From Thermotoga profunda AZM34c06 (GTDB lineage Bacteria > Thermotogota > Thermotogae > Thermotogales > DSM-5069): 64,000 bases of DNA. A program made the translations under genes and the position numbers. The notes beneath the pieces were generated by a model. The model was given only the letters and a program-made list of their open reading frames with translations. It did no database searches and had not been told where the DNA came from. Positions within the stretch are counted from its first letter, which is position 1. Every line of letters begins with the position of its first letter. Below are positions 161-59,735 of the stretch, one piece after another. Location of the stretch: NCBI RefSeq assembly GCF_000828675.1, contig NZ_AP014510.1, positions 701,413 through 765,412 of the forward strand, read 5' to 3'.

Positions 161-841
161 TCAGTTTTTGCCAAGTATATCTTTTTTTAGCATATTGACC
201 CCAGCATACACAACCCACGTATCGACATAATCCAGTGCAAACTCAATAACTGTGGTTGTAAGGTATATATTTAGCAGTGTTCTGAAATCGTATATTCCTA
301 CGAATGCCAAACTCACGAAAACGAAATTGTCCAAGATTTGTCCAAGTTTTGTCGCGATATTGTTTCTCATCCACAATTTTGTTTTAGTTCTCAGTCTATC
401 GTGTATCCAGACGGCAAAATAGCCCGAGAGTATATAAGCAATCCAACTGGCAAGAGCTATTCTCGGTGTGAAGGCAAAGGCATTTGAAAGATAACCCTGA
501 GCTACATCGTTTGAAGAAGGTATATATCCTACATAAACAAGTCCAAGTAATACGAAAATGAATTGAGCAAAAAAACCTATCCAGATGGCTTTTCTCCCCT
601 CTCTTTGTCCATAGATCTCTGTGATGATCGAATAGACAGCGAAAGCCATACCCATGCTCATATTTGCAGCCGTCACTTCAAGACCAAGGAGGTTAAAGAG
701 TTTTGCCACTCCTAAATTTGATGCAACTATCAGAGTAGCAAGGGCTACGTATAATCCTTCTTTTTTCAGAAATCGTATGGCAAACAATACTGTCAGACAT
801 GAAACTATATACTCAAGTCCCAAAAAGAGAAAGTTAGTCAG
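161..841 (-). CDS. yhhQ: Queuosine precursor transporter, YhhQ/VUT family, apparent CTG start
   Basis: A membrane protein of about 226 residues with several hydrophobic helices, matching the YhhQ (DUF165) family that imports queuosine precursors. Family-like segments are KKEGLYVALATL, ITEIYGQREGRKAIWIGF and the C-terminal FALDYVDTWVVY. The first ATG/GTG/TTG in frame is the TTG at 823, which has no ribosome site and cuts into helix 1. The CTG at 841-839 lies 6 bases after GAGGTGA and restores an N-terminus of family type (TNFLFLGLEY); a TGA closes the frame just upstream. A competing four-codon ATG frame (848-834) overlaps this start. No preQ1 riboswitch was recognised upstream. QueH at 54706-55254 is a likely metabolic partner. 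Confidence 0.85.
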   Translation of the reverse strand: MTNFLFLGLEYIVSCLTVLFAIRFLKKEGLYVALATLIVASNLGVAKLFNLLGLEVTAANMSMGMAFAVYSIITEIYGQREGRKAIWIGFFAQFIFVLLGLVYVGYIPSSNDVAQGYLSNAFAFTPRIALASWIAYILSGYFAVWIHDRLRTKTKLWMRNNIATKLGQILDNFVFVSLAFVGIYDFRTLLNIYLTTTVIEFALDYVDTWVVYAGVNMLKKDILGKN

Positions 842-8429: not shown

Positions 8430-9461
8430 ATGAAAAAGATCGCCATTCTTGGTGCCACAGGATTGGTTGGACAGAGATTTGTTGAATTTCTTTCAAATCA
8501 TCCTTTTTTTGAAATCTCGGTGCTTGCAGCTTCAGATAATTCTGCTGGTAAGCGATATTCACAAGCTGTACAATGGCATTTAGACACGCCAATTCCAGAT
8601 AAAGTCTGTCAGATGCAAGTACAAAAATGCGAGCCAAATTTTGATTGTGACTATGTCTTTTCGGCACTTCCATCGGACATAGCAGGACCGATAGAAGATG
8701 AGTTTGTCAAATCTGGGTATATAGTATTCTCAAATGCAGCAAGTCACAGAATGGATGAAAATGTTCCCCTCATGATTCCAGAGGTGAATCTTGATCATTT
8801 GAATTTGATCGACCATCAGAAGACACCCGGCAAAATCATTACGAATCCCAATTGTTCAACGATAGGTCTTGTTATGGCGCTCAAGCCGATAATGGATCGA
8901 TTTGGCATTCAACAGGTACATGTGGTGACAATGCAGGCCATCTCGGGTGCAGGCTATCCTGGTGTTGCATCGTTGGACATTCTTGATAACGTCATACCTT
9001 ATATAAAGAATGAAGAAGAGAAAATAATGACAGAATCAAGAAAGATTTTGGGCAACCTTAAGAACGATCATGTTGAATTCGCTGATTTTGATATACAAGC
9101 TCAGTGCAACAGAGTACCCGTTCAAGATGGTCATATGCTTTCAGTTTTCGTGGAAACATGCCAAAAAGCAACCGTTGAGGACATTATCAAAGCCTTTGAA
9201 GAATTTCGTCCATTGAAAGACTTGAATCTTCCAACAGCTCCTGAGAGACCCCTGATTTATCTGCCTGAGCAGAGATCGCCACAACCCAAATTGCACAGAA
9301 ACTTGGGTAATGGTATGTCGGTGAGTATAGGGAGGCTTGTACAGATCTCGGAAAAGAGGTTTCGCTTTGTAGCGCTTGTCCATAACACTATAAGAGGAGC
9401 CGCTGGATGTGCAATATTGAATGGAGAAGTTTATGAGTTTTTGAGAGAAGATTTGGAGTGA
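8430..9461 (+). CDS. asd: Aspartate-semialdehyde dehydrogenase
   Basis: 343 residues from ATG 8430 (GAGGAGG 7 bases upstream). It reduces aspartyl phosphate to aspartate semialdehyde, here the expected substrate of the COG1900 protein. The NADP-binding start is ILGATGLVGQRF; the catalytic cysteine is Cys142 in NPNCSTIGLV; the Gly-Ala region AISGAGYPG and the terminal NTIRGAAG are typical. Sequence length and SALPSD motif resemble the archaeal/thermophile-type Asd. It completes the aspartate-to-homocysteine route together with aspartokinase upstream. Its TGA overlaps the next start as GTGA. Confidence 0.95.
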   Translation: MKKIAILGATGLVGQRFVEFLSNHPFFEISVLAASDNSAGKRYSQAVQWHLDTPIPDKVCQMQVQKCEPNFDCDYVFSALPSDIAGPIEDEFVKSGYIVFSNAASHRMDENVPLMIPEVNLDHLNLIDHQKTPGKIITNPNCSTIGLVMALKPIMDRFGIQQVHVVTMQAISGAGYPGVASLDILDNVIPYIKNEEEKIMTESRKILGNLKNDHVEFADFDIQAQCNRVPVQDGHMLSVFVETCQKATVEDIIKAFEEFRPLKDLNLPTAPERPLIYLPEQRSPQPKLHRNLGNGMSVSIGRLVQISEKRFRFVALVHNTIRGAAGCAILNGEVYEFLREDLE

Positions 9462-16284: not shown

Positions 16285-16992
16285 GTGCCGAAAGGTCAAA
16301 TCAGATTGACCGAAATGCAGGCTCGATTACTTGCTATATTAATAATCGCATTGAGCATCGGTTTTGTCAGTTTTACACTTGCAACGTTTTTTGTTTTGAA
16401 AAGTCGTTCCAATATCCAAGTGGAGATAGTAGAGGTACCACCACCGAAAATCGAAGTACCGACTAAAGCAAGTACATCAACTGACTCTTCAACAGAGTAT
16501 GTGACTCCTTCTGTCTACAGAATAGAAGAATTTGATTACAAAAAACTCGTAATTCAAGCAGTTGAAGTGGTTGAAAAGGGCGCAAGTGTATCGGTTTATG
16601 TTCTACAATCAGAAGATGCTCTAAAGGTCATCAGGGCTTCTAATCTGCCATTTTTGATCTGCCAATATTCCAAAGATACTTACACAGTTGGGATCGTTGG
16701 TGATTACATCTTTCAAAATCTCACGCCTATGCGCACTTTGTATGGAGTACTTGTACTGTCAGTTGTGAACAAAGAAACTGCTATGGAACGAGTATTGGCT
16801 TTTAGAAGTGCTGGTTATCCTGCTTATCTGATGCATTTTACACGAGATGGGCGTGATTGGTATTCACTCGTGATAGGGGCTTTTAGCGATGTCAATAGTG
16901 CAGAAGATTTTAACAAGAAATTGGATTGGACAGAGGTGATGAAGATAGCTGGTACTCAGCGCCCCGGATATGTGGGGAGAATAACACCTTGA
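16285..16992 (+). CDS. Membrane-anchored SPOR-domain-like protein
   Basis: 235 residues, GTG start after GGGAG. A short basic cytoplasmic tail is followed by one transmembrane helix (about 13-38), a Pro/Thr/Ser-rich linker (VPPPKIEVPTKAS) and a periplasmic region. The C-terminal ~75 residues have the SPOR pattern: an opening strand, a helix (ETAMERVLAFRSAGYPAYL), then a strand with WYSLVIGAFSD and a second helix. SPOR domains bind denuded peptidoglycan at division sites. Position downstream of minC is consistent with an envelope or division role. The SPOR call is by pattern, not by strong residue conservation. Confidence 0.7.
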   Translation: MPKGQIRLTEMQARLLAILIIALSIGFVSFTLATFFVLKSRSNIQVEIVEVPPPKIEVPTKASTSTDSSTEYVTPSVYRIEEFDYKKLVIQAVEVVEKGASVSVYVLQSEDALKVIRASNLPFLICQYSKDTYTVGIVGDYIFQNLTPMRTLYGVLVLSVVNKETAMERVLAFRSAGYPAYLMHFTRDGRDWYSLVIGAFSDVNSAEDFNKKLDWTEVMKIAGTQRPGYVGRITP

Positions 16993-50800: not shown

Positions 50801-52178
50801 CAGAATAACCTCCAAGTCTAATCTCTTGATTTTCTATCAAAATAACGGCTTTTTCGATACTCTTATCTGAATAGAATTTTTTCTCAAAGATTATTACTTC
50901 AACACCAGGATGTAAGATCTTCCTGGCAATGACCTTGGCGTGGCTGAATTTTTCCTTTATCTGTGATTCTAATTTCTGCAACTGTTTTTCACTCATTTCA
51001 ATAGTGTTTCTGAGATTTATCATGGTCTGACCGACTTTTCTGTAAACCTCCATTTTGTCAGGTGGAAGCTGACCTTGATTTTTCTCCATCATCGCCTTCA
51101 TTGTTCTGTAAATATTTACCAGTTTTGATAAGTTCTCTCTATCGAGTTCCAGTTTACCTCGTATTATCTTGATTTCATCTCTGATCTGTGGATCAAAGCC
51201 TATTTCTATTAATGTCTTAATACCTAATGGCGAACCTATTTCTTCTGCTTCGACGGTAAAGCCTGCTACAATAGAGCCCCCCGCTATTATTCCCTTGTTG
51301 CCTGTGGCTTTTACTTCTATACCGGCACGAATTTGTGAATTAGTTATAGGACCGTTCACGACAACACTTTTTCCAGCTTCTATGATTGCATTCTCCAGAA
51401 ATCTGGCAATGATATCTTCTTTTGCTTTGACAATACCTTTTTCTCTACCCTTTATTCCCAGTGCGCTGACAGATCCTTCAAAGGAGATAACGGTCGCAGC
51501 CTCTATAACACCATTGACCGTGATATTACCTTTTGCTTTGACGGAAAAACCAGGTTTGACGTCTCCAGAGATCTGTACTTCTCCAGGAAAGTCAATGTTT
51601 CCAGTTGCGTAATCAACATCCCCCTTTATCACTAACACTTCATTTACCTCTATAGATCCATCTGTTCTGGCGACCAATATACCATCTACAGTTGCAATCA
51701 CTTTACTGCCATCTTCAGAAAGTTTCACATTTTTTCCGAGTTTGAGTTGGGCGGGTTTACCAGGTTTGGGGTTTAGAGATCTTCCAAAGACATTTCGACC
51801 TTCTGTACCAGGAGTTGGCTGTATGATCTCTGCGATCTCTTGACCTGCTTTGACTATTTGTCTTGTTCGACTTGGAAGTTCTCTCAAATCGATCTTGTCC
51901 TTTGTCTGTTCCGATGATTCGCGTTTCTCAGGTTGAATCATGAGGATTTGCCCATCTTGACCATCGATTGGTTCCTTCCCAAGAGCAACGAGAACTGGGA
52001 CACCAAAGGTTTTTTTGTTTACCAAACCTTCAATTGCTTCCACAAGAATACCATACACTATTCCATTGGCTTGAAGATACGAAATTATTTGATCTTTTGA
52101 TACTTCTTCGTTTTCCTCTGGTGAAACATTTACATAAGCTTCAAGTCCGTTACTCGAAACCTTCAATTGTGCTCTCAC
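50772..52178 (-). CDS. FapA family (DUF342) protein
   Basis: 468 residues. The middle is a beta-helix of short repeats (VLVIKGDVDYATGNIDFPGEVQISGDVKPG and similar), the end a coiled coil (residues ~340-420) and a small tail. DUF342/FapA proteins are widespread; they are linked with cell-shape, motility or polysaccharide regulation but the mechanism is unknown. The beta-helix is like that of MinC and bactofilin. GTG start overlapping the trmFO end. GGGGGAT upstream. Confidence 0.85.
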   Translation of the reverse strand: MRAQLKVSSNGLEAYVNVSPEENEEVSKDQIISYLQANGIVYGILVEAIEGLVNKKTFGVPVLVALGKEPIDGQDGQILMIQPEKRESSEQTKDKIDLRELPSRTRQIVKAGQEIAEIIQPTPGTEGRNVFGRSLNPKPGKPAQLKLGKNVKLSEDGSKVIATVDGILVARTDGSIEVNEVLVIKGDVDYATGNIDFPGEVQISGDVKPGFSVKAKGNITVNGVIEAATVISFEGSVSALGIKGREKGIVKAKEDIIARFLENAIIEAGKSVVVNGPITNSQIRAGIEVKATGNKGIIAGGSIVAGFTVEAEEIGSPLGIKTLIEIGFDPQIRDEIKIIRGKLELDRENLSKLVNIYRTMKAMMEKNQGQLPPDKMEVYRKVGQTMINLRNTIEMSEKQLQKLESQIKEKFSHAKVIARKILHPGVEVIIFEKKFYSDKSIEKAVILIENQEIRLGGYSVDTQVNPQS

Positions 52179-53478
52179 CAGTATCCCCCTTTATTAACCC
52201 CACTTTTTTCAGGAATTGCTTCATGTCCTCGAGTGCCTTTTGCGCTATCTGTTCTCGGGGTTGCCTGTAGCCACCCAGTAATCCATAATTAGCATACATC
52301 GGTTGTAGGTTTCTTTCACTACCTCCACTAATATAATCGAGCAAAGCCCCCATCATTGTAGTTTTTGGTAAAAGCACTGGATTTAAATTATTAATCATTC
52401 TATAAATATTCAAAGCCACGTACAATCCACTTGCAGCTGACTCTAAATAACCTTCTACTCCTGTTATCTGTCCTGCGAAAAAAATTCTATTATTCGTTTT
52501 CAATCTCATATAAGGGTCTAAAACTTTCTTGGAATTGATGTAAATATTTCTATGCATGACACCATATCGAACGATTTCTGCATTTTCAAGTCCTGGTATT
52601 AATCTGATAATTCGCTTTTGTTCGTTCCACTTCAATCGTGTTTGAAAACCTACTATATTGTACAACGTTCCTTCTACATTATCCTTACGTAATTGAACAA
52701 CCGCATAAGGTTGTCTTCCAGTTCGAGGATCGATTAACCCCACAGGTCTCAGTGGTCCAAAGAGTAGGGACATTTTTCCACTTTTGGCAATTTCTTCTAT
52801 GGGCATACAACGTTCGAACAATAAACCTTTGTCAAAGTCTTCCATTGGTATGACTTCTGCATTGATTAGGGCTTCATAGAATTTTTCATACTGTGACATA
52901 TTCATGGGACAATTCAAATGATCTTTTGTTCCAACACCATAGCGATCCGCAAAGAAGGCTATTGAATAATCAATACTATCTGCTGTTATCACCGGTGCTA
53001 CTGCATCGAAAAAGTAAAGATTCTCTCCTATTATTTTCTCAAGCCATTCACACAAATAATTGCTCGTAACTGGACCTGTAGCTATTACCCAGATCTCCTT
53101 TGTATCTTCTGGAATTTGTATTACTTCTTCGTTGATGATTTGTACACCAAGTTCATTGATGGTATCTGTGATGAACTTTGAAAACTTCTCTCGGTCGACT
53201 GCAAGGGCTTTCCCAGCAGGCACACGAGAAGCATAAGCTGCTTTCATTATTAATGAATCAAATAATTCCATTTCCCTTTTGAGTAAACCCGACGCGTTTT
53301 TAATATCATCTGATTTCAAAGAATTGCTACACACAAGTTCGGCTAACAATCCAGTTTTATGGACGGGTGTCATCTTGATGGGTCTCATTTCATGAATTGT
53401 GGTTTCGATCCCAAATTTAACCAATTGGTACGCTATTTCTGATCCGGCTAAACCTCCGCCAACGACATGTACTCTCAG
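52150..53478 (-). CDS. trmFO: TrmFO, folate/FAD-dependent tRNA U54 methyltransferase, apparent CTG start
   Basis: 442 residues if read from CTG 53478-53476. It makes ribothymidine at tRNA position 54 using methylenetetrahydrofolate and FAD. The FAD-binding motif VHVVGGGLAGSEIAYQL lies wholly before the first canonical start codon (TTG 53424), and TGA closes the frame a few codons before the CTG, so CTG is the only reasonable start. It overlaps the upstream stop codon as CTGA. The EMRP motif (HEMRPIKMTPVHKT) and AGQITGVEGYLESAASG follow. It shares folate metabolism with metF and metH elsewhere in the window. Confidence 0.93.
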   Translation of the reverse strand: MRVHVVGGGLAGSEIAYQLVKFGIETTIHEMRPIKMTPVHKTGLLAELVCSNSLKSDDIKNASGLLKREMELFDSLIMKAAYASRVPAGKALAVDREKFSKFITDTINELGVQIINEEVIQIPEDTKEIWVIATGPVTSNYLCEWLEKIIGENLYFFDAVAPVITADSIDYSIAFFADRYGVGTKDHLNCPMNMSQYEKFYEALINAEVIPMEDFDKGLLFERCMPIEEIAKSGKMSLLFGPLRPVGLIDPRTGRQPYAVVQLRKDNVEGTLYNIVGFQTRLKWNEQKRIIRLIPGLENAEIVRYGVMHRNIYINSKKVLDPYMRLKTNNRIFFAGQITGVEGYLESAASGLYVALNIYRMINNLNPVLLPKTTMMGALLDYISGGSERNLQPMYANYGLLGGYRQPREQIAQKALEDMKQFLKKVGLIKGDTGESTIEGFE

Positions 53479-53906
53479 CGTAAATCACCCGCCAAAGATG
53501 TGAAAACCTTGGTGAGTTTGAGAAGATTTCCATTCTGAAGATTTACCAACTGGACATCATTGAAAATTCTACTGATTATATATAGGCCAAATCCTCCTTC
53601 TTTGTCAGGAGAAGGCATCTTTGGTTTTATCACATCTGGATCAACGTGTTCACCAAAATCCCTCAACAAAATCTGAAGTTGTTTTTCACTCTCATCCCAG
53701 ATGAGTGTCATTGTTATGTATTTATTCTCGTCACCTTTGTATGTGTGTCTGATTATGTTGGTCAAAGCCTCGTTAGCTCCAAGTTCAGTATCCCAGATTT
53801 CTTCTTCACTGATATTTCTATACAGTAGGAATGATCTTATGACTGCTCGAGCAAGTCTGGTGTTGATCGATTTTGAGCTGAAGGACACAGTAACAATCTC
53901 TTTCAT
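53475..53906 (-). CDS. RsbW/SpoIIAB-like histidine-kinase-type ATPase
   Basis: 143 residues from ATG 53906, overlapping the upstream gene as ATGA. GHKL ATPase motifs: N box LGANEALTNIIRHTY, G1 region LLRDFGEHVD, G2 GGFGLYIISRI. The compact single-domain form is that of anti-sigma factor kinases (RsbW, SpoIIAB) in partner-switching systems. No STAS antagonist or sigma gene is adjacent. The partner may be the preceding unknown protein. It is embedded in a translation-related operon between queH and trmFO. Confidence 0.85.
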   Translation of the reverse strand: MKEIVTVSFSSKSINTRLARAVIRSFLLYRNISEEEIWDTELGANEALTNIIRHTYKGDENKYITMTLIWDESEKQLQILLRDFGEHVDPDVIKPKMPSPDKEGGFGLYIISRIFNDVQLVNLQNGNLLKLTKVFTSLAGDLR

Positions 53907-54705: not shown

Positions 54706-55254
54706 TTATCCTCCGTTCGAAGTTTTTCTCAATGAATAGATACATCCACAATAATTTTGTCTATACAGACCGAGTTTTTTGCTCAATTCAATGCTCCTGA
54801 GAAAACCGTTCTTTTTCTTGAAATCTTTATGGAGATACTCTATTTTTAGTTCTTCAGCGATAGTTTCCCCAATCTGAAGAATCAACTTTGAATTCTTCTT
54901 GGGACTCGTTGTCAACGTAGTGGAAAAGATATGAAAACCATTTTTCTTCGCATATTCTGCCGTTGATCTCAAACGATATTCAATACATTTGACACATCTA
55001 AATGAACCTTCTGGAAGATCTTCAAGCCCCTTTATTTGTTGTTCCCACAAGATTTTGTCTTGTTTTTCAACTATCAAATTCAAGTTCCAGAGATTTGCCA
55101 GTTTCACGGTTGCTTCCAGACGTTTTTCATATTCCTCTTCAGGCTGTATATTTGGATTAAAGAAAAACAAAATAGGTTCGTACCCTTCTTCATGCAATCT
55201 TTCGACTGCAGTTGTTGCATCTGGTGCACAACAGACATGAAGAAGTATTTGCAT
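54706..55254 (-). CDS. queH: Epoxyqueuosine reductase QueH
   Basis: 182 residues. QueH (DUF208) reduces epoxyqueuosine to queuosine in tRNA, a non-homologous replacement for QueG. Motifs: LLHVCCAPDATTAVERL with the adjacent Cys8-Cys9, FRCVKCIEYR, TTLTTSPKKN, and the late NYCGCIYS. These Cys bind an iron-sulfur cluster and a second metal. It overlaps the dtd stop by one base (TGATG). The YhhQ precursor transporter at 161-841 suggests salvage of a queuosine precursor. Confidence 0.93.
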   Translation of the reverse strand: MQILLHVCCAPDATTAVERLHEEGYEPILFFFNPNIQPEEEYEKRLEATVKLANLWNLNLIVEKQDKILWEQQIKGLEDLPEGSFRCVKCIEYRLRSTAEYAKKNGFHIFSTTLTTSPKKNSKLILQIGETIAEELKIEYLHKDFKKKNGFLRSIELSKKLGLYRQNYCGCIYSLRKTSNGG

Positions 55255-55703
55255 CAGAATCTCTTCTCACTATCCAAAAGTAGAGTGACCGGTCCGTCAT
55301 TAAAAGCCTCGATATCCATATGCGCACCAAAAACTCCTTCGGCGACATTTTTGATTTTGTTTTTCACAGATTCTACAAATGAGCGATAAAGTCTTTGACC
55401 AAGATCAGGTGGAGCGGCATCGCTGAAAGATGGTCTTCTTCCACGCCGACAGTCACCATAAAGTGTGAATTGAGAAACAACAAGCACACCTCCACCTATT
55501 TGCAAAACATTTAGATTCATTTTCCCTTCTTGATCCTCAAAAATTCTCAAATTAAGAACTTTATCGCAAATCCATTCAACATCGTTTTGTGTGTCATTCC
55601 TTCCCACACCAAGGAATACGAGTAAGCCTCTCTCGATAGAACCAACGATCTTTTCGTCGACAATGACTTTGGCATGATGAACTCTTTGTACAACGGCTCT
55701 CAG
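55254..55703 (-). CDS. dtd: D-aminoacyl-tRNA deacylase, apparent CTG start
   Basis: 149 residues from CTG 55703-55701, the normal Dtd length. Dtd frees tRNA from wrongly attached D-amino acids. Reading from CTG gives (M)[12 protein letters not shown], matching the conserved Dtd N-terminus; the first canonical codon (GTG 55607) would remove 32 conserved residues, and TGA closes the frame six codons before the CTG. Ribosome site GGGGGAG lies 6 bases before. The CTG overlaps the rsh stop as CTGA. Other motifs: [19 protein letters not shown] and the cis-proline NDGPVTLLL. Confidence 0.93.
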
Positions 55704-57838
55704 CTTGGTCTCCCCCTTTCAACGGATATGATATTTTCAACGGATTCCAGAGACTTCTTTGCTTCATCGAGTTGTTTCAAATTACTGACAACGAGACTCA
55801 GTAACACTATGGAATAAGTTCGCTTACTACTCGCAAAAAGTACCTTCAGTACCGTTATACCTTTATTCTCAAGTAACTGCACAAGTTTACCTATATCGGC
55901 TTTATCTCTAATAGTAACTCTCAGAGTTGTTTCATACTTACTTTGTGGATCACCATTCCATCGTGCTTCAAATATCCTATCGGCTTCAACGTGTTTCACA
56001 TTTGGACAGTTGATACTGTGAATCGTCAATCCTCGCTTACCTATCACACCTATTATCTCATCGCCGGGAACGGGACCGCAACATTTTGCCATGTGTATTT
56101 CTATATTCTTGAGTCCTGCTACTTCTATTACAGAAGATGGACTACTTGGCTTTTGTTTTTTCTCTTCTGATTTTGTAATGCTTTTGTCAACCAGTGGATT
56201 GAGTAGATTAATCAATTCCCCGTATGTGATTGTACCTTCTGCAACACGACTATAGAATTCATCTTCCGATATACCTTGGCTCTGAAGATATTTCTGGATC
56301 ACATTTGATTCCATGATTTCTTCTATGGATTTGGATAGTTGTTTACTGATTCGTCTGAGAACGTCTATTCCTCTGTCTATGAGTTCGGTCTGCAATTGCT
56401 CTCGGAAGTATTTTCTGATCTTTGCCTTTGTGCGTGGAGATTTAGCATACTTTAACCAATCAAGACTTGGTCTTGCGATTTTTCCAACCAATATTTCAAC
56501 CAGATCTCCATTTCTCAATTGATAATTGATCGGTACCAACTTGCCGTTAACCTTGGCACCTGAAAATTTATGACCGATATCCGTATGAATGGAATAAGCA
56601 AAGTCTATGGGTGTGGCTCCGACTGGGAGGTGTTTTACCTCTCCTTTTGGTGTGAATACGAATACCTCGTCCATTTGAAGTTCTTTCTTAAATTCTTCAA
56701 GTCCAGACAAGTCCTTTGTGAGCTCTTTTCGCCATTCAAGGAGCTGGTTAACCCATTTTTGCATAGCTTTCACATTGATTCCATCTTTATAGATCCAATG
56801 AGCAATCAAACCGTATTCCGCCTCGGCATGCATTTCTCTATCTCTTATCTGGATTTCGAGTGGTTCCCCATAGCTTGTGATAACTGTAGTGTGCAAGGAT
56901 CTGTAGCCATTTGATTTTGGAGCTGCGATGTAGTCTTTTATCCTACCCGGTAAAGGCTTCCAGATGCTATGGACAATTCCAAGGACGTTATAACAAGTCG
57001 GAATATCATTCACAATGGCGCGAATCCCAAATAAGTCATATATTTCATTGAAATTCTTACCTTTTTCTTTGAGCTTTTGCCATATACCATAGTAGTGTTT
57101 GAAACGTCCTTCAACTTGTGCCTCTATTTCGTTTTCAAAAAGGGCTTTCTGTAGGATCTCGACGTACTCTTTTATTCTCTGTTCTCTTTCTTTCTTTTTT
57201 TCAGCCACAAGGGCTTTTATCCTGTTGTATTCACTTCTATTTAAAACTTTAAAAGATAGATCTTCTAATTCCCACTTAATCGAGTAGATTCCCATTTTGT
57301 GAGCAATTGGGGCATATATCTCCAAGGTTTCCTTGGCTTTGTATATCTTTTTTTGCTCGTCTTTCACAAATTCTATTGTTCTCATGTTGTGCAATCTATC
57401 AGCGAGTTTCACGAAAATAACTCTGATGTCTTCTGCCATGGCAAACAGCATCTTTTGAATTGTTTCCAACTTCAATTTCGAATCGCTTGTACCCACGGGT
57501 GCATTCAATTTGCTCACCTTTGTTACTCCGTCGACTATGCGAGCTATCTGATTTCCAAATTCTTTTTCGACATCTTCTATCCTGACCTTTCCTTCACTGT
57601 CTTCTACTGCGTCGTGTAGTAACGCTGCAGCAAGTGTTTGAACATCGACATTCATTTGAGCAAGGATTTTACAGACTTCCACTGGATGGACAATGAAGGG
57701 ATCACCTGAGTCGCGATAAAAATTCTCATGTGCATATCGAGCCATATTGTAGGCTTTCGCCAGTAATTTTATATCTTCTTCAGAAGATTTGCCTTTTAAG
57801 GACAATATCTGCTTGGCAATCTCAACTGAATCTGTCAT
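55700..57838 (-). CDS. Bifunctional (p)ppGpp synthetase/hydrolase (RSH)
   Basis: 712 residues, long RSH. The order is HD hydrolase domain ([21 protein letters not shown]), synthetase domain ([30 protein letters not shown]), TGS domain ([26 protein letters not shown]), helical and zinc-finger-like region with [12 protein letters not shown], and C-terminal ACT domain. Intact HD residues suggest both synthesis and hydrolysis of the alarmone. Preceded by mnmG by 22 bases and followed by dtd in a CTGA overlap. Confidence 0.94.
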
Positions 57839-57860: not shown

Positions 57861-59735
57861 TCATTCTACTCGGGATGATTTGAGATAGGAAACCAGAGCA
57901 CTTATATCTGAAGGTGTCACTCCTGGTGTGCGAGAAGCTTCGAGAATATTTGATGGCTTGAGTCTGGATAATTTTTCTGCTGCTTCGGTAGAAAGGTTGA
58001 TAATCTTTTTGTAGTCGATATTCTGTGGTATAGTGATTGCTTCAAGACTGTGAAGTGTTCTAACTTCATCGAGCATTCTTTCGACATAATCTTCGTACTT
58101 TGCATTCAGTTCTACTTGCTCAATGACTTCTGGATCGTCAATGGGATGTGGGTCAAGGGTTTTAATCTCTTTATAACCAATTTGCGGTCTTTTGAGAAGC
58201 TGAATGAATTTTGTAGGTTGGTGAAGTGGTTGTGTCCCCAAACTCACAAGTAATTCATTGACTTGACCTGTGGGCTTTATCGTCATAGATCTCAATCTAT
58301 CTGTCTCGACTTGTATCCTTGTCTCAAGTGCCAGGACTTTTTCATAAAACCATTTTGGAATGAGTCCAATTTGGTAACCTTTCTTAGACAACCTGAGATG
58401 TGCGTTATCATGACGAAGGATTAGTCTGTATTCAGCTCGAGAAGTTAACAATCTATAAGGCTCGTCAACGCCTTTTGTTACAAGGTCATCGATCATGACT
58501 CCAATATACGCTTCTGAGCGGTCCAGAACAATGGGGTTTTCTCCTCTGAGTTTTTGAGCTGCATTTATACCTGCTAATAAACCCTGACCTGCCGCTTCTT
58601 CGTATCCACTTGTGCCGTTGATTTGACCGGCAAAAAACAGTCCTTCGATATTTTTACTTTCAAGTGTATGGAGTAGCTGTGTTGGATCTATGTAATCGTA
58701 TTCGATTGCATAAGCAGGCCTTGTGATTTGTGCATTTTCAAGTCCAGCAATAGATCTAATCAATTTAATTTGAACATCATATGGTAAGCTGGTACTCAAA
58801 CCATTTAGATAATACTCTTCGGTCATTTTTCCTTCGGGTTCAACAAAGATTTGGTGAGATTCTCTATCTGGAAATTTAACGACTTTATCTTCTATCGACG
58901 GACAATAGCGAGGTCCTCTTCCAACGATCAATTTCACATCTCCGTATAAAGGTGAAAAAGAGAGATTCTCCCTTATTATCTTGTGAGTTTCGTCATTCGT
59001 GTAGGTTAACCAACATGGGTAATCTTTTGGCAATACAATTGGTTCATCGAAATATGAAAAACACAATGGCTCGTCGGACGTATCCTGTCTTTTCATCTTT
59101 GAAAAATCTATAGACCTTCCAAGGATTCTCGCGGGTGTACCGGTTTTAAACCTACTGAGCTTAATTCCATACCTTGCCAATGACTCCGAAAGACCCTTAG
59201 ATGGAAAATCTCCAAGTCTACCGGCTTCAAATACATTTCTTCCTATGAATATCTTTCCGTTGAGAAAAGTACCTGTGGTGATTATCGCAGTTTTAACGTC
59301 ATATTGCACTCCTAAGGTATCGATCACCGCCTTGATCTTACCTTCTTCAACGACAAGCTCACACACTTGAGAATGTCTCAAATAAAGATTTTCTGTGTTT
59401 TCCAAACGCTTTTTCATGATCTGACTGTACGCCGGCTTATCTATTTGCGCACGTAAAGCTCTTACAGATGCACCTTTACTGGTGTTGAGCATCCTCACAT
59501 TTATCATAGCCAAATCTGTTACCTTAGCTATCTCGCCACCGAGCGCATCGACTTCTCTAACAACAATTCCTTTTGCCGGCCCACCCATAGCCGGATTACA
59601 AGGTGTCCATGCTATCCTGTCGAGATTTGAGGTCAAAAGAATTGTCTTGAAACCAAGTCTTGCGGTTGCCAATGCGGCTTCTACTCCCGCATGACCACCA
59701 CCTATTACTGCAACATCAAAATTTTCATAAACCAG
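57861..59735 (-). CDS. mnmG: MnmG (GidA), tRNA uridine-34 carboxymethylaminomethyl enzyme, apparent CTG start
   Basis: 624 residues from CTG 59735-59733, the usual MnmG length. It forms cmnm5U at the wobble base with MnmE. The FAD motif VAVIGGGHAGVEAAL lies before the first canonical start (TTG 59672), and TAA closes the frame six codons before CTG, so only CTG makes a functional protein. Ribosome-like AAGGAAGGTGG ends 6 bases before it. Other motifs: WTPCNPAMGGPAKG, FKTGTPARI, GQINGTSGYEEAAGQG and EYRLILRHDNA. First gene of the nine-gene minus-strand run. Confidence 0.94.
   Translation of the reverse strand: MVYENFDVAVIGGGHAGVEAALATARLGFKTILLTSNLDRIAWTPCNPAMGGPAKGIVVREVDALGGEIAKVTDLAMINVRMLNTSKGASVRALRAQIDKPAYSQIMKKRLENTENLYLRHSQVCELVVEEGKIKAVIDTLGVQYDVKTAIITTGTFLNGKIFIGRNVFEAGRLGDFPSKGLSESLARYGIKLSRFKTGTPARILGRSIDFSKMKRQDTSDEPLCFSYFDEPIVLPKDYPCWLTYTNDETHKIIRENLSFSPLYGDVKLIVGRGPRYCPSIEDKVVKFPDRESHQIFVEPEGKMTEEYYLNGLSTSLPYDVQIKLIRSIAGLENAQITRPAYAIEYDYIDPTQLLHTLESKNIEGLFFAGQINGTSGYEEAAGQGLLAGINAAQKLRGENPIVLDRSEAYIGVMIDDLVTKGVDEPYRLLTSRAEYRLILRHDNAHLRLSKKGYQIGLIPKWFYEKVLALETRIQVETDRLRSMTIKPTGQVNELLVSLGTQPLHQPTKFIQLLKRPQIGYKEIKTLDPHPIDDPEVIEQVELNAKYEDYVERMLDEVRTLHSLEAITIPQNIDYKKIINLSTEAAEKLSRLKPSNILEASRTPGVTPSDISALVSYLKSSRVE

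Follow-up and report, generated by a model that had tools for sequence, protein, structure and literature searches.

The described systems closest to the trmFO gene studied here are infC (AUU/AUC/AUA) and Streptomyces sigR (GTC), which, in the passages of PMC5472188 that treat them, carry rare start codons of a kind that ordinary annotation misses and that IF3 is expected to limit, as would hold for trmFO. For infC and sigR the start was shown by experiment and the regulation by IF3 was measured, whereas the start of trmFO is predicted from sequence and swaps between CTG and TTG among close relatives. Conserved weak starts behind a strong SD have likewise been found by initiation profiling in Staphylococcus cvfC1 (AUU) and ccpN (AUA), according to the sections of PMC13009471 on these genes; these pair AUU or AUA with an extended SD, whereas the genes described here pair CTG with an SD of 5-8 bases in G000. 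The junction upstream of trmFO is identical in geometry to the -4 nt ATGA and GTGA overlaps of termination-reinitiation, and it is kept through the family. The main text of PMC10666635 names ATGA and GTGA, and a word search of that main text returns neither TTGA nor CTGA, whereas the conserved junctions considered here have only C or T as the first base. Switches from UUG to CUG in prokaryotes are likewise one-step transitions of the start codon, and the figure given in the relevant part of PMC5622118 is 1 of 2,468 ancestral UUG starts; against that rarity, several genes of one genus carry CTG here. In the open-access literature, which leaves subscription journals mostly uncovered, we found no paper on CUG starts in Thermotoga or Pseudothermotoga, on trmFO starts, or on the rsgA start in connection with IF3. 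The predicted CTG start of trmFO is a well-supported further instance of a known phenomenon, and an uncommon case of it.

The window, by which we mean the whole stretch of 64,000 nucleotides analyzed, comes from a genome of the genus Pseudothermotoga (G000), and the features discussed are collected in Table 1. A TIGR00137 profile search of the genome (2,187,612 bases) returned trmFO as the sole match above cut-off, with 563 bits against a curated cut-off of 428.65 and an alignment spanning model positions 2-432. On the minus strand its frame reads TGA TTT ACG CTG AGA GTA CAT GTC GTT GGC GGA GGT, with TTT and ACG alone between the in-frame TGA and the CTG. The first in-frame ATG, GTG or TTG is the TTG at 53424, 18 codons in and downstream of VVGGGLAGSE, which a protein begun there would lose; the N-terminal FAD GxGxxG motif (LRVHVVGGGLAGSE) forms part of the TrmFO product only if the start is the CTG or just before it. 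Matches to NCBIfam and Pfam families begin at residue 2-3 of the CTG-started protein, and in an alignment with the solved TrmFO structure 3g5q its residue 2 pairs with residue 3. The SD, GGTGAT, is a 6-base match at an aligned offset of 3, and the bulk of ATG starts lie at offsets of 1-3; the anti-SD string used for this scoring was an assumed one rather than that of this genome's 16S gene. A start model that combines SD, codon identity and coding signal assigns the CTG at 53478 a posterior of 0.89 (637 ORFs).

These features bear out the preliminary description, which had placed the start of trmFO in a CTGA overlap, the FAD motif ahead of every in-frame ATG, GTG or TTG, and a TGA shortly before the CTG, now located three codons upstream. 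The CTGA is on the minus strand, where TGA (53477-53475) closes the RsbW-like gene and CTG (53478-53476) opens trmFO. Because sister species keep CTG, others have TTG at the aligned codon, the SD is in register and the N-terminus is family-like, CTG is the only plausible trmFO start. What goes beyond chance at this locus is that no alternative start exists, that the SD stands in register and that relatives conserve the arrangement; a CTGA alone is not improbable.

Table 1. Positions of the trmFO junction and of the other genes with CTG starts, numbered within the window unless a locus (L093) is given.
Feature	Position	Strand	Remarks
trmFO	52150..53478	-	442 codons from CTG; TIGR00137 E 2.1e-169
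CTG start codon of trmFO (predicted)	53476..53478	-	start-like codon before FAD motif, ACG the sole other; CTG or TTG aligned in relatives
GGTGAT, SD of trmFO; also encodes Gly-Asp close to the C-terminus of the RsbW-like protein	53484..53489	-	
TGA stop of RsbW-like gene, in 4-base CTGA overlap with trmFO	53475..53477	-	
RsbW/SpoIIAB-like anti-sigma factor gene, upstream of trmFO	53475..53906	-	PF13581 E 9e-23; exact start ambiguous (posterior 0.55)
dtd (D-aminoacyl-tRNA deacylase), CTG start, CTGA overlap with rel	55254..55703	-	TIGR00256 E 4e-54 from residue 2; posterior 0.98
rel (RelA/SpoT family), upstream of dtd	55700..57838	-	TIGR00691 E 2e-212
mnmG, CTG start, no stop/start overlap	57861..59735	-	TIGR00136 E 1e-250 from residue 6; posterior 0.98
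Queuosine precursor transporter (TIGR00697), CTG start	161..841	-	E 5e-41; 8-base SD; posterior 0.90
rlmN CTG start in G000	L093:18807	-	7-base SD; in G001 (L097) CTG with 6-base SD
rsgA, CTG start in G000	L093:16429-17301	-	

The aligned trmFO start was compared in 11 genomes of the family, among them three sister species of the same genus (G001-G003) and a sister genus (G005, G007-G010). It is CTG in three (G000, G001, G003), TTG in six (G002, G005, G007-G010), GTG one codon upstream in one (G004) and ATG in one (G006), and CTG is thereby kept in three of the four species of the genus. The preceding codon differs from one genome to the next (ACG in G000, GTA in G001, CCA in G003, AAA in G002), the start codon alone being constant, and no ATG, GTG or TTG stands between the upstream stop and the conserved coding sequence in the three genomes with CTG. 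Eight of the nine genomes that have CTG or TTG show an SD of 5-6 bases, placed at offset 3; in G007 this offset falls on a CTG adjoining the TTG. Tandem CTG TTG codons are present at the start in both G007 (L039) and G010 (L042), and either codon could serve. A further 36 trmFO loci were read outside the family, where CTG is in register in G033 and G013 and the remaining loci show other starts or are ambiguous. The CTG codons of G033 (L022) and G013 (L015), which represent two other genera of the order, follow SDs of 6 and 9 bases. With G000, G001 and G003 counted, a predicted trmFO CTG start occurs in three or more genera of the order.

Part of this conservation is explained by the upstream gene, whose TGA stop also holds two of the three bases of the CTG. 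The RsbW-like gene ends ...GCG GGT GAT TTA CGC TGA, and its GGTGAT or GGTGAC is kept in G000-G003 (by eye in G003), while the two residues after Gly-Asp vary. An NTGA overlap between this gene and trmFO was recovered by script at 8 of 10 junctions (G000, G001, G002, G005, G007-G010) and by eye in G003; it is absent in G006, where trmFO has its own ATG. The 4-base overlap of rel and dtd recurs in 9 of 10 genomes, again with G006 as the one without it, and N is a pyrimidine (C or T) at both junctions throughout. Since N is the wobble base of the upstream gene's last codon, where T and C are silent, a simple route would connect TTG and CTG, and a T-to-C transition at this base is the most likely origin of the trmFO CTG from an earlier TTG. 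The preliminary description had listed all four NTGA overlaps in the window; the others that it placed are present (GTGA at 9458, TTGA at 16989, CTGA at 55700-55703), and support for their use was obtained at the two CTGA junctions, trmFO and dtd.

The overlap is not what permits a CTG start, because mnmG and rlmN use CTG without one. For those two genes we would expect plain SD-led initiation at CTG, and for trmFO and dtd the likeliest mode would be termination-reinitiation at the overlap with help from the SD. Ribosomes finishing the RsbW-like gene may thus reinitiate at the overlapping CTG, and its weakness as a codon would give a modest output of TrmFO in step with the upstream gene. We hold it highly probable, from the comparisons available, that trmFO is translated from the CTG at 53478, with methionine inserted by the ordinary initiator tRNA.

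Several other genes have CTG at the aligned start. In dtd it is found in 5 of 10 genomes (G000-G003 and G005), and in mnmG, behind SDs of up to 9 bases, in 4 of the 9 whose N-terminus was read (G000, G002, G003, G006); the G004 match to mnmG is another protein and was left out, and the G010 fragment lacks the N-terminus. For rlmN the count is CTG in 2 of 10 (G000, G001) and TTG in 8, with no overlap in G000. The queuosine precursor transporter has CTG in G000 and TTG in its G001 orthologue, the other six matches, only 32-36% identical, being left out of the comparison; its CTG (841) also lies in a CTGA, behind a 44-codon open frame with no evident gene.

How common such starts are was assessed with the start model, trained on ORFs of the window and of 40 further stretches of the genome; a uniform-codon version had been dropped for its many false calls at rare codons. 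With the window included, CTG is the best of 58 candidate fourth codons (likelihood gain 13.2, next 5.0; 637 ORFs), and without it CTG is not among the best six of the 58 (583 ORFs, 40 stretches); the posterior then passes 0.5 at just two ORFs, rlmN (0.81) and an ambiguous one (0.59). A second set of stretches contains no confident CTG start (285 ORFs), and direct SD counting in the first sample finds no excess at CTG (5/162 vs 290/11470, p 0.39). CTG as a general fourth start codon of the genome was rejected, the likelihood gain having come from the window itself. CTG is hence rarely used as a start in this genome; four cases, at posteriors of 0.89-0.98, fall in the window. The model expects 0.0 CTG starts among 342 ORFs of G021, from another family of the order, and 2.5 among 314 ORFs of G002. 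One of the latter is by eye a HAD-type hydrolase with a probable CTG start (L151:7782, minus strand; SD GAGAGGTGAA).

All six genes with a confident CTG start (mnmG, dtd, trmFO, the queuosine transporter, rlmN and rsgA) are translation-related, with roles in tRNA and rRNA modification, its supply, tRNA proofreading and 30S maturation. This favors an alternative in which weak starts act as a sensor, such that CTG, the ATC of rsgA and the ATA/ATC of infC are kept by selection and the output of genes for ribosome maturation and tRNA modification depends on IF3 and on the condition of the 30S subunit. We consider it unlikely. It would draw on the documented repression of the non-canonical starts of infC and sigR by IF3 (the part of PMC5472188 concerned with them), which would be expected to hold CTG starts down as well, and on the retention of the codon: when the G000 CTG of five such genes is compared in 17 pairs, its C is kept in 13, and the silent C sites of these genes predict 4.0 (Poisson-binomial 2e-6, an optimistic value, as pairs share ancestry and the genes were chosen for their CTG in G000). 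Two of the 13 pairs (mnmG-G002 and rsgA-G006) were scored by eye with the CTG one codon away. This suggests no more than that CTG is held rather than decaying, and it counts for the predicted start of trmFO too. However, the six genes sit in only three places of the genome, and translation genes abound in the window (rlmB, gltX, def, fmt). An RNA-modification regulon on CTG, suggested by six of six genes, failed a prospective test on three pre-named genes, mnmE, ksgA and tgt, which start with TTG, ATG and GTG in this genome and have no CTG in G000-G003; the idea of a functional CTG set is weak on that account, and rsgA alone stands out. The G002 candidate, as a HAD-type hydrolase, also speaks against the sensor, as does the exchange of the predicted CTG starts of trmFO and dtd with TTG in relatives. 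At the 5' end of mnmE in G006 (L277) the aligned start reads TGA, then ACG, which may be an ACG start or an extra assembly base.

The rsgA gene appears to start with CTG in G000, G001, G002 and probably G006, and with ATC behind a GGAGG-type SD in G005 and G007-G010, a non-canonical start in 9 of the 9 family genomes with the gene (the G003 match, another protein, was left out) that also counts for the sensor. This CTG falls, in G000, within an upstream open frame whose stop comes 8 bases later. The 5' end in the sister genus (L119-L123) reads GGAGGGATTGAC ATC AGA, and in G010 no ATG, GTG or TTG occurs between the upstream TAG and the ATC. As a positive control with known non-canonical starts, infC was read at 17 loci: 15 show ATA or ATC in register, and two were left unmatched by the script. 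Its ATA/ATC with SD in register extends from the family to other families of the order (L238 and 14 further loci). Within the family, all orthologues of rsgA are on a codon rejected by IF3, and those of trmFO are not (TTG in six, GTG in one and ATG in one of 11); rsgA is a better parallel to infC and sigR than trmFO. Among 21 rsgA loci read outside the family, most carry TTG or ATG, which argues against the sensor. That an rsgA-led set for ribosome maturation and RNA modification is kept on IF3-rejected starts, with immature or undermodified 30S subunits raising their own repair factors, we judge distinctly improbable.

A changed anticodon stem in the initiator tRNA lowers discrimination against CUG in vitro, as stated in the pertinent part of PMC11497404. 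An altered initiator tRNA as the cause of CTG use is not supported here, the stem-loop being the normal GGG-CTCATAA-CCC in G000-G003 and G005-G010, and IF3 appears ordinary by eye in the alignment. The exact initiator pattern is missing in 5 of 45 genomes (G004, G033, G035, G036, G043); with one mismatch allowed, it is matched in G035 and G036, and not in G004, G033 or G043.

Initiation at CTG can further be weighed against starts at its neighbors. The ACG just before it and the TTT are both in frame after the TGA, but the position of the ACG is not conserved in the sister species (GTA, CCA or AAA, as above), and ACG and TTT are generally weaker starts than CTG; we regard this alternative as highly improbable. 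That TrmFO is instead produced by frameshifting as a fusion with the RsbW-like protein, as overlapping frames might allow, is scarcely credible, given the lack of an evident slippery run at the overlap on inspection by eye, the separate genes of G006 with an ATG for trmFO, and family profiles that start at residue 2. A sequencing error in place of a true TTG, ATG or GTG, which the preliminary description had named as a possible refutation and which the TTG of close relatives could be taken to favor, is very unlikely to the point of being negligible, as two other assemblies (G001, G003) have CTG in the same place, TTG is aligned elsewhere, and dtd has CTG in four species of the genus.

The predicted CTG start of trmFO carries practical weight for annotation. 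Gene finding confined to ATG, GTG and TTG shortens trmFO to 424, mnmG to 603 and dtd to 117 codons, as a mechanical ORF list illustrates, and strips the FAD motif from two enzymes. For tolerance of CUG with a normal initiator tRNA, a thermophile with conserved CTG starts offers natural test cases. In this family, rsgA encodes a ribosome checkpoint factor and is clearly a candidate for control through its start codon; were the improbable set led by rsgA to prove true, an infC-like feedback would reach into ribosome quality control.
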